A stretch of DNA of 64,000 nt from Thioalkalivibrio nitratireducens DSM 14787 (GTDB taxonomy: Bacteria > Pseudomonadota > Gammaproteobacteria > Ectothiorhodospirales > Ectothiorhodospiraceae). Where the stretch lies: the NCBI RefSeq assembly GCF_000321415.2, contig NC_019902.2, positions 186,001 to 250,000 on the forward strand, given 5' to 3'. Each line of letters begins with the position of its first letter. The first letter of the stretch is position 1. Shown one piece after another: positions 11,133-13,526 of this stretch. Position numbers and translations under genes: made by a program. The notes under the pieces were generated by a model that had not been told where the DNA came from, ran no database searches, and saw only the letters and a list, made by a program, of their open reading frames with translations.

Positions 11133-11522
11133 ATGAATCCGTTCGACCTTCGATGGCTCTGGCAGGCGGTTCGCGGGCGCAGCCTGACGCTTGCGATCGT
11201 ATTCCTGCTGGCGCTGCTGGGGATATCCGCGCCCGACCTGCTGCGCCCGATTCTGGATCCCCTCGACCTGCCCGGGTGGTCCGCATGGATCGTGTCGGCC
11301 ATCGCCCTCTGGGTGCTGGTCCGCCTCGAGCCGGTCGCTATTCCCTCCGACCGGGTCCGGCGGCGGCTGGCGCTGGCCGTGGTTCTCGGTGCGCTTACCA
11401 TGTTTTGGCTGTCGCGCGGGGACGACGAACACGCCTCGATGTGGTCCGACCCGATACCGGTGGCGTCGCTTGGCGCGAGCTGCGTGCCCCTGCAGGGAAT
11501 GCCGCTTCGGGCCGCGGCATGA
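11133..11522 (+). CDS. Small membrane protein of unknown function
   Basis: 129 residues with three hydrophobic segments (about residues 18-36, 48-65 and 78-93) and a short, less ordered C-terminal tail that ends soon after RGDDEHASMWSDP. The start at 11133 is the first ATG before the hydrophobic part; the frame is open further upstream but reads as low-complexity shadow. No family is recognised. It is divergent from the split gene before it and converges with rpoH after it. Codon use in the membrane part is consistent with coding; the C-terminal end is less convincing. Confidence 0.5.
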   Translation: MNPFDLRWLWQAVRGRSLTLAIVFLLALLGISAPDLLRPILDPLDLPGWSAWIVSAIALWVLVRLEPVAIPSDRVRRRLALAVVLGALTMFWLSRGDDEHASMWSDPIPVASLGASCVPLQGMPLRAAA

Positions 11523-11576
11523 ATCCTGGCCAGTGCCGTGGCCTGCGGTTTCGTCGGCTGTCGGCCCGGGATCCCC

Positions 11577-12440
11577 CTATGCCGCCAGCGCCTCACGCAG
11601 GGAACGGAACGCTCGGCTTTCGATCTGGCGAATGCGCTCGGCGGACACGCCGTATTCGGCCGCGAGTTCGTGCAGCGTGGCCTTCGGTTCGCTCAGGTAG
11701 CGCCGCACCAGGATGTCACGTGTGCGTGCATCCAGCGCATCCAGCGACTCGCGGAGGCGGTACTGGAAATGGCGATTCCAGTCGGCATCTTCCGCGACCT
11801 GGGCCGGATCGTGCTCCGGGCTGCCTGCCAGGTGCTCGGCCGGTACCAGGTGTTCCCGGTCTTCGTCGTCCTCCGGGGCAGGGTCGAAGCTGGTATCCCG
11901 GCTCGACAGCCGGCTCTCCATCTCCAGCACGTCGCTTTCGGACACCCCAAGATCCCGGGCGACCGCGGTGACCTCGTCCGCATTCAGCCAGCCCAGGCGC
12001 CGCTTGGCCTGGCGGAGGTTGAAGAACAGCTTGCGCTGGGCCTTGGTCGTGGCTACTTTCACGATCCGCCAGTTGCGCAGGATGAATTCATGGATCTCGG
12101 CGCGAATCCAGTGGACCGCGAACGAGACCAGCCGCACGCCCTGCTCGGGATCGAAACGGCGCACCGCCTTCATCAAGCCCACGTTGCCTTCCTGAATCAG
12201 GTCGCCCAGCGGCAGGCCGTAGCCCAGGTAGCCGCGGGCCACGTGGACGACGAAACGCAGGTTGTGCAGGATCAGCTGGCGTGCCGCGTCCAGATCCTGC
12301 CGGTCGCGCAGGGCGCGTGCCAGGCGCTGCTCCTCCTCCGCGTCGAGGACCTCGATCTGGCTCACGGCCGCGATGTAGTGATCCAGGTTGCCTACCGGGA
12401 CCGGCATGTCCACGGGCTTGCGCACCAGTGCTTGGCTCAT
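11577..12440 (-). CDS. rpoH: RNA polymerase sigma-32 factor RpoH (heat shock)
   Basis: Directs RNA polymerase to heat-shock promoters. The 287-residue length is typical. Visible are sigma region 2 (residues about 50-120, with GDLIQEGNVGLMKAVRRFD), the sigma-32-specific RpoH box QRKLFFNLR (135-143), and region 4 with a helix-turn-helix ending RIRQIESRAFRSLRE. GGGGGGAG sits upstream of the ATG. Its promoter region (12472-12501) overlaps a CIRCE-like inverted repeat, which suggests HrcA repression of the heat-shock sigma factor. The order rpoH-ftsX-ftsE-ftsY matches other gammaproteobacteria. Confidence 0.97.
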   Translation of the reverse strand: MSQALVRKPVDMPVPVGNLDHYIAAVSQIEVLDAEEEQRLARALRDRQDLDAARQLILHNLRFVVHVARGYLGYGLPLGDLIQEGNVGLMKAVRRFDPEQGVRLVSFAVHWIRAEIHEFILRNWRIVKVATTKAQRKLFFNLRQAKRRLGWLNADEVTAVARDLGVSESDVLEMESRLSSRDTSFDPAPEDDEDREHLVPAEHLAGSPEHDPAQVAEDADWNRHFQYRLRESLDALDARTRDILVRRYLSEPKATLHELAAEYGVSAERIRQIESRAFRSLREALAA

Positions 12441-12471
12441 GTAGGTCTCCCCCCAAAGAGTAATTCGGCTG

Positions 12472-12501
12472 ATTCTAGCAGTCTGCCCATTAGAGTGCTA
12501 A
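12472..12501 (-). promoter_or_regulatory. Candidate rpoH promoter
   Basis: On the minus strand, TTAGCA (12501-12496) and TAGAAT (12477-12472) are separated by 18 bases; they match the sigma-70 consensus at 4/6 and 5/6 positions. The predicted start is near 12465, giving a leader of about 25 bases ahead of the rpoH ATG with its strong ribosome site. The CIRCE-like repeat covers the same interval. Confidence 0.55.
12475..12501. promoter_or_regulatory. CIRCE-like HrcA operator over the rpoH promoter
   Basis: The left arm CTAGCAGTC (12475-12483), a spacer of exactly nine bases, and the right arm GAGTGCTAA (12493-12501) have the 9-9-9 layout of CIRCE (TTAGCACTC-N9-GAGTGCTAA). The right arm is a perfect match and the left arm matches 7 of 9. 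It spans the -35 and -10 elements predicted for rpoH, where a repressor would block polymerase. Confidence 0.6.
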
Positions 12502-12599
12502 GTGCGGGTGCGGTTCCCGGAAGGCGGCTGGGGGTCCGCGGGTCGACGAAGGCGTGGTCAGCGGCGGTCGCGCCGGGCAAGGGGGGTTCGCGCAGGCCC

Positions 12600-13526
12600 T
12601 CAGTCGCGCAGTGCCGCACCGCTGCCGAGTCTTGCGCCCAGCCAGCCCAGCAGTACGCCCGACGTGGCCAGCAGCAAGGCCAGTTGCAGCCGCGGTCCGA
12701 CGAACACCAGCGGCAGTCCGAACACGGCGGCGGCTTCCTCGACCGGGAGCCGGGTCAGCCCCACGCCGATCCATAACAGCCCATAGCTGACGAGACCGCC
12801 TCCCAGGCCGATCATCAGACCGCCATACAGCGATGGTCGGCGCAGGAACCGGTCAGTGGCCCCGGTGATGCGGGAGATCGAGATCTCCTCGCGCCGCTCC
12901 CGCAGCTCGGCGGCGGATGCCACGGCGAGGATCAACGTGATCCCGAGAGCGAGCAGTCCGGCAATCACCATCAGGATGCGCAAACCGGCTCCATGCAGGG
13001 CGTCCAGCTGCCGCACCCATTCGTGATCGCTGATCAGTGTCGCGCGGGGCAGCAGGTCCGTGAGCCGGGATTCCAGCGCCTGCACCGCCTCCGGGGTGTG
13101 CTGCAGCGGCACCACCTCGACGATCGCCGGCAGCGGGTTTTCGTCCAGCCAGTCGAGCAGCGCCGGGTCAGGAAGGCTCGCGCGGTACGCGTCGAGGGCT
13201 TGGTCGGCCCCGGTGGCGTCGACCCGGGCGATCCCGTCGAGCGCGCCCACCCGCTCGACGGTGGCCGCCAGCTCTTCTGCGGTGATGTCGTCGAGATATA
13301 GCGCGATCCGGGGTTCATGGTCGATATCGGACGACAGGGCCCGCGCGTTCTCCAGCAGCAACCACAGGTAAGCGGGCAACGCCAGGATGAAGCCGAGCAC
13401 CGCGATCATGATCAGCGTCTGGCCCGGCGCGGCCAGCCTGCGCCGGAACGATCGCACCGCCGCGTCCGCGTGGTTGTGCAGCCAGGCCTCGAGACAGCCC
13501 GCGCGTTCGCTGCCGTCCTTCTTCAC
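12600..13526 (-). CDS. ftsX: Cell division protein FtsX
   Basis: Membrane partner of FtsE. The FtsEX complex at the division septum activates peptidoglycan hydrolases through a periplasmic loop. The 308-residue protein has a cytoplasmic N-terminus, a first helix near residues 37-58, the large extracytoplasmic domain (about 65-185), and three C-terminal helices, the normal FtsX topology. The conserved region EISISRITGATDRFLRRPSLY precedes the last two helices. It overlaps ftsE by four bases, so the two are translationally coupled. Confidence 0.95.
   Translation of the reverse strand: MKKDGSERAGCLEAWLHNHADAAVRSFRRRLAAPGQTLIMIAVLGFILALPAYLWLLLENARALSSDIDHEPRIALYLDDITAEELAATVERVGALDGIARVDATGADQALDAYRASLPDPALLDWLDENPLPAIVEVVPLQHTPEAVQALESRLTDLLPRATLISDHEWVRQLDALHGAGLRILMVIAGLLALGITLILAVASAAELRERREEISISRITGATDRFLRRPSLYGGLMIGLGGGLVSYGLLWIGVGLTRLPVEEAAAVFGLPLVFVGPRLQLALLLATSGVLLGWLGARLGSGAALRD

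Follow-up and report, generated by a model that had tools for sequence, protein, structure and literature searches.

A CIRCE operator over the predicted rpoH promoter of Thioalkalivibrio nitratireducens and the probable coupling of two heat-shock systems in Gammaproteobacteria

HrcA with its operator CIRCE, on the one side, and the heat-shock σ-factor RpoH, on the other, are commonly treated as two systems that are separate or run in parallel. In the classical HrcA/CIRCE system the repressor acts on groESL and on hrcA-grpE-dnaK, and the locus described here shares with that system the repressor, the operator code, the 9-9-9 geometry of the repeat and a site at groES. It differs in that the target is a σ-factor gene, dnaK has a perfect σ32 promoter and would be reached through it, and hrcA itself is preceded by a remnant with five mismatches. 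One comparable prediction exists: in Geobacter sulfurreducens a CIRCE with perfect arms was predicted at position -51 of rpoH, and groESL is also CIRCE-marked (Rodionov 2004, PMC545781, Table 8). The table concerns one species and the passages available from that paper give no promoter layout. Unlike the Geobacter prediction, the present operator belongs to gammaproteobacteria, is tied to the presence of hrcA across a class-wide sample, and lies over one or two promoters.

Two further systems resemble parts of this arrangement. According to the passages available, the P3 promoter of Escherichia coli rpoH is RpoE-dependent (PMC2215328, PMC8103513), and an RpoE-type promoter may also precede rpoH here; however, a control search of E. 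coli found no match to hrcA, whereas in the present locus the σE-like -10 element overlaps a CIRCE arm. In Helicobacter pylori two heat-shock regulators, HspR and HrcA, are interwired and GroE raises HrcA binding, as described in the passages seen of PMC6032397, but both regulators there are repressors, whereas here a repressor would control a σ-factor. In the open-licence literature that we examined, partly by passages and with incomplete cover of older work, no other report of rpoH being controlled by HrcA or through CIRCE was found, and it is only as far as this search reaches that the class-wide link to hrcA and the merged promoter layout are new.

The operator and predicted promoter elements at rpoH

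The window, the whole stretch of DNA that was analyzed, comprises 64,000 nucleotides of the T. nitratireducens DSM 14787 genome (NC_019902.2, positions 186,001 to 250,000), and its features at rpoH are collected in the table. The repeat at 12475-12501 is confirmed as a real CIRCE: set against TTAGCACTC-N9-GAGTGCTAA it agrees at 16 of 18 arm bases and has a spacer of 9, no other CIRCE with three or fewer mismatches occurs in the window and none arose in 100 shuffles, and it is the top-scoring CIRCE of the 4.0-Mb genome, for which 0.02 sites with two or fewer mismatches are expected at the base composition of the window. The original prediction had described a 9-9-9 inverted repeat with one perfect arm and another matching at 7 of 9 positions, and the letters, read again, agree. 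It was also right to place the repeat upstream of the rpoH ATG (12440), although the gap is 34 bp and not the 35 bases given. Its further claim, that the repeat spans a predicted -35 and -10, holds as a prediction, in that the only promoter-like site found is covered by the repeat. That site, the sole one in a scan of 12380-12700 on either strand, reads TTAGCA-18-TAGAAT with a TG extension (12501-12472); with its hexamers spaced within the 16-18 bp range it matches at 9 of 12 positions, a match to consensus only. The T three bases past the right arm, which would form the last base of the -10, is conserved in all 46 rows of the order alignment and in 55 of 61 class rows.

Features at the rpoH locus of T. 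nitratireducens (window coordinates)
Feature	Coordinates	Strand	Basis
rpoH, heat-shock σ-factor RpoH, 287 aa	11577..12440	-	TIGR02392, 387 bits (cut-off 323 bits)
Likely ribosome-binding site of rpoH, GGGGGGAG	12447..12454	-	Read from letters
Extended -10 TGC-TAGAAT of σ70-like promoter (right-arm end plus 3 bases)	12472..12480	-	Consensus scan and row alignment
CIRCE (predicted HrcA operator)	12475..12501	-	Direct reading and motif scan; present in 46/46 order upstreams
CIRCE right arm GACTGCTAG	12475-12483	-	7/9 match
CIRCE spacer taatgggca	12484-12492	-	9 bases
σE-like -10 TCTAA (last 2 bases of left arm plus first 3 of spacer)	12490..12494	-	16 bp after -35
CIRCE left arm TTAGCACTC	12493-12501 (12501-12493 on rpoH strand)	-	9/9 match
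-35 hexamer TTAGCA of σ70-like rpoH promoter, within left arm	12496..12501	-	Consensus scan
σE-like -35 GGAACCG, 5/7 to GGAACTT	12511..12517	-	Register comparison of upstreams
ftsX, gene preceding rpoH	12600..13526	-	FtsX, 190 bits, under curated model cut-off of 255

A conserved σE-like element lies under and beside the operator, an additional layer that was absent from the original prediction. RpoE promoters have GGAACTT and TCAAA as their canonical boxes (passages of PMC4890791). T. nitratireducens itself carries GGAACCG-16-TCTAA, a weaker match than in its relatives, among which a GGAACTT-type -35 recurs, beginning 16 bases ahead of the left arm or, in some cases, 17. Within one base of the register of T. 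nitratireducens, 45/45 order rows and 45/66 class rows have a -35 with at least 5 of 7 matches, the background averaging 1.5 and 2.3 (maxima 7 and 8, respectively); at the level of at least 6 of 7 the counts are 31/45 and 33/66, against means of 0.07 and 0.36. The order count uses 45 of 46 rows, one upstream (G036) being too short, and these rows, drawn from closely related genomes, are not independent of one another. The strict -10, TCnAA, stands at the register in 31/45 order rows and 25/66 class rows, and A occupies the third position of the spacer in 39/46 order rows and 46/61 class rows. Judged from this register, one operator may therefore cover two promoters, with the σE-like -10 sharing the left arm and the spacer.

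The gene order at the locus is ftsY-ftsE-ftsX-rpoH. With this one sequence folded by itself, an RNA thermometer in the rpoH leader is not evident: the fold of the leader with the first codons (12225-12466) is no better than that of shuffles (z 0.76), and over 11500-12900 every Rfam family stays below its cut-off.

Distribution of the operator and of hrcA

The order was represented by 47 genomes, 46 of which yielded rpoH (G031, 58% complete, did not), and all 46 upstreams contain CIRCE with 0-2 mismatches. The left arm is identical in every row, whereas variation in the right arm falls mainly on its third position (25 rows with C, 19 with G and 2 with T), an asymmetry between the arms; the spacer diverges in its middle and at its end. 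hrcA is present in 44/47 of these genomes and in 38/38 of the near-complete ones. The comparison of sites at groES and hrcA covers the 34 order genomes listed. In 33 of them a second CIRCE is located 60-77 bp upstream of the groES domain, and the remaining one (G027) has no groES match; nine of the listed genomes possess a third CIRCE, located before hrcA in eight but not in G007.

For the class we used 96 gammaproteobacterial genomes from 95 families, approximately one per family, 70 of which have hrcA. CIRCE with three or fewer mismatches precedes rpoH in 58/64 genomes with hrcA and in 3/23 genomes that lack an hrcA match (Fisher p=1.3e-11, uncorrected for kinship), whereas 1 of 2660 shuffled order and class upstreams reached three mismatches. 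The 87 upstreams behind this count exclude six genomes of the 96 with no rpoH match at the cut-off, two counted in the order set (T. nitratireducens, G000, and G007), and G079, which is CIRCE positive with three mismatches; adding G000, G007 and G079 brings the figure for hrcA-positive genomes to 61/67. The best-matching rpoH of each genome was scored, and second copies in G072 and two in G117 were inspected without entering the count. The hrcA-positive genomes without the site are G101, G132, G072, G067, G056 and G137, of which G072 carries CIRCE at its second rpoH. The three with the operator but no hrcA match, L155 (G118), L177 (G104) and L194 (G059), are drafts of 97-99% completeness, in which a missed gene is possible. 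Further gammaproteobacterial genomes from a phylum sample gave 4/4 with hrcA and 0/4 without, the four hrcA-negative ones being those newly read.

A third view comes from named RpoH loci, the best 80 of 583, among which CIRCE is found in 44 of the 79 with enough upstream DNA (L014, where only 37 bases separate the gene from the contig end, was left out). Listed loci with the operator include Woeseiaceae, Lysobacterales, Thiothrix, Methylocaldum and Rheinheimera, and it is absent from the listed Pseudomonas, Halomonas and Endozoicomonas upstreams. A tree of these best 80 of 583 loci, scored for CIRCE state alone, implies at least seven changes of it. A second CIRCE-like site with 1-3 mismatches stands near the rpoH one in L060, L154 (G088) and L183 (G053), possibly as tandem operators. 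Spread beyond the Gammaproteobacteria was considered and rejected: among 31 of the 61 hrcA-positive non-class genomes of the phylum sample, read at the best-matching rpoH of each, two have a site with three or fewer mismatches and one has a site with four.

HrcA, other CIRCE sites and a proposed circuit

The genome of T. nitratireducens encodes HrcA (G000:C1:3263483-3264145, minus strand, E 3.7e-64; TIGR00331, 328 bits). The reading frame is open and complete, its product is related to the solved HrcA 1stz (E 3e-22), and it is followed by grpE and dnaK. Only two CIRCE with three or fewer mismatches occur in this genome, at rpoH (two mismatches) and 62 bp before the groES ATG (three). Because sites with three mismatches arise by chance (approximately 0.4 per genome, with one instance of a reversed control pattern in this genome), the case for the groES site lies in its location and conservation. 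No CIRCE with three or fewer mismatches was found before dnaK in the genome-wide scan. Instead, dnaK has a perfect σ32 promoter, CTTGAAA-13-CCCCAT (13/13; L001 790-765; pattern CTTGAAA-N11/16-CCCCAT), and HrcA should therefore reach dnaK via RpoH. This promoter lies near the end of grpE, and dnaK may thus be transcribed separately from hrcA. A σ32 promoter at rpoH, groES or hrcA was sought and rejected, the best matches being 8, 9 and 9 of 13, as in shuffles (means 8.6-8.8, maxima 11-12). Before hrcA there is a CIRCE remnant with five mismatches (L001 2496-2522); since eight listed relatives (G001, G004, G005, G006, G010, G016, G017 and G022) keep a site with two or three mismatches there, autoregulation of hrcA may be weakening in T. 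nitratireducens.

The original prediction had read the repeat as a site at which HrcA represses rpoH, placing the two heat-shock systems in series, and had named hrcA itself and conservation among relatives as points on which this would turn, with a search for CIRCE before groES and dnaK as a further check. At the level of sequence comparison the interpretation is supported. hrcA is present and the repeat is conserved, in all 46 order upstreams and in the 58 of 64 hrcA-positive class genomes; the search for further CIRCE succeeded at groES but not at dnaK. The serial arrangement survives for dnaK, with its σ32 promoter and no CIRCE, but groESL would be a direct HrcA target as well as rpoH, and the circuit should accordingly be described as series plus parallel.

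We consider it very likely that the repeat functions as a CIRCE, that HrcA, together with free GroEL, blocks rpoH there, that heat frees rpoH and groESL, and that RpoH then turns on dnaK. Within this proposal we infer HrcA binding, repression, use of σE and control by GroEL, the last by analogy with Bacillus, Chlamydia and Helicobacter. At low temperature, free GroEL would keep HrcA active and bound to CIRCE, where it would shut RNA polymerase out of rpoH and mask a σ70-type promoter (-35 in one arm, -10 in the other) and, probably, a σE-type promoter that its footprint also spans. Once heat or misfolded protein has taken up GroEL, HrcA would release the DNA, and rpoH and groESL would be transcribed together, after which newly made RpoH would switch on dnaK and the remaining regulon. 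GroE raises HrcA binding and misfolded protein draws GroE off (passages of PMC6032397, citing Bacillus, Chlamydia and Helicobacter work), and thus a shortage of GroEL would free rpoH and groESL jointly. Points against the circuit are the two right-arm mismatches here, the 6/64 hrcA-positive genomes without the site and the 3/23 hrcA-negative ones with it. In addition, in Xylella under nitrogen starvation hrcA rises 4-fold and rpoH also rises 2-fold (passages of PMC3224663), a joint rise that would ill fit a simple repressor.

Several other explanations have to be weighed. That the repeat is kept only as a promoter, with HrcA uninvolved, we regard as most improbable. Both arms do hold promoter hexamers, but the left-arm CTC falls outside the σ70 hexamers and is present in 46/46 order rows, and the three bases of the right-arm GAG, likewise outside the hexamers, are kept in 59, 59 and 57 of 61 class rows, although the third varies within the order. 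Moreover, 20 of the 23 hrcA-negative class genomes are without the repeat at rpoH, and the same operator code recurs before groES in the 33 of 34 listed order genomes. A real operator with a minor HrcA effect is the more serious possibility, if still an unlikely one: translation and degradation would set the level of RpoH while CIRCE trims basal transcription. E. coli rpoH is controlled largely post-transcriptionally, and the two mismatches in the right arm, together with a C instead of G at position R3 in 25 of 46 order rows, would suit an operator of modest effect. However, the left arm is invariant, the site tracks hrcA in the class sample, and the leader offers neither a notable fold nor an Rfam family that would point to an RNA thermometer.

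The σE-like element could also be something other than a promoter, namely a site for an activator or one portion of an extended contact with HrcA. The -35 of T. nitratireducens matches at only five of seven positions, the strict -10 is limited to part of the order and class rows, and the relaxed σE pattern is scarcer where CIRCE is missing (1/26 vs. 21/66). Even so, we judge this to be improbable, given the excess of -35 matches of at least 6 of 7 at the register over background, the identity of GGAACTT with the canonical RpoE -35 box and, as far as the passages of PMC8103513 describe it, the RpoE-dependent P3 promoter at E. coli rpoH.

Meaning for the σ32 response

With HrcA repression of rpoH as the preferred reading, HrcA docking on the start signal of rpoH probably lets one heat-shock system switch on the other, in T. 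nitratireducens and in many relatives that possess hrcA. We also put forward, tentatively and as rather less than an even prospect, a broader model in which hrcA-positive gammaproteobacteria would hold a single CIRCE over σ70 and σE promoters at rpoH, envelope stress, via σE, would raise RpoH only when free GroEL is short and HrcA has left the DNA, HrcA would gate the whole σ32 response, and lineages such as Pseudomonas and Halomonas would have lost the gate. With the merged σE/CIRCE/σ70 layout, it becomes simple to test if two stress inputs are gated by a single repressor. If HrcA controls rpoH in most of the gammaproteobacteria that keep hrcA, then the HrcA-less wiring of E. coli may be derived. 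Furthermore, the supply of GroEL would then be a transcriptional input to the whole σ32 response.
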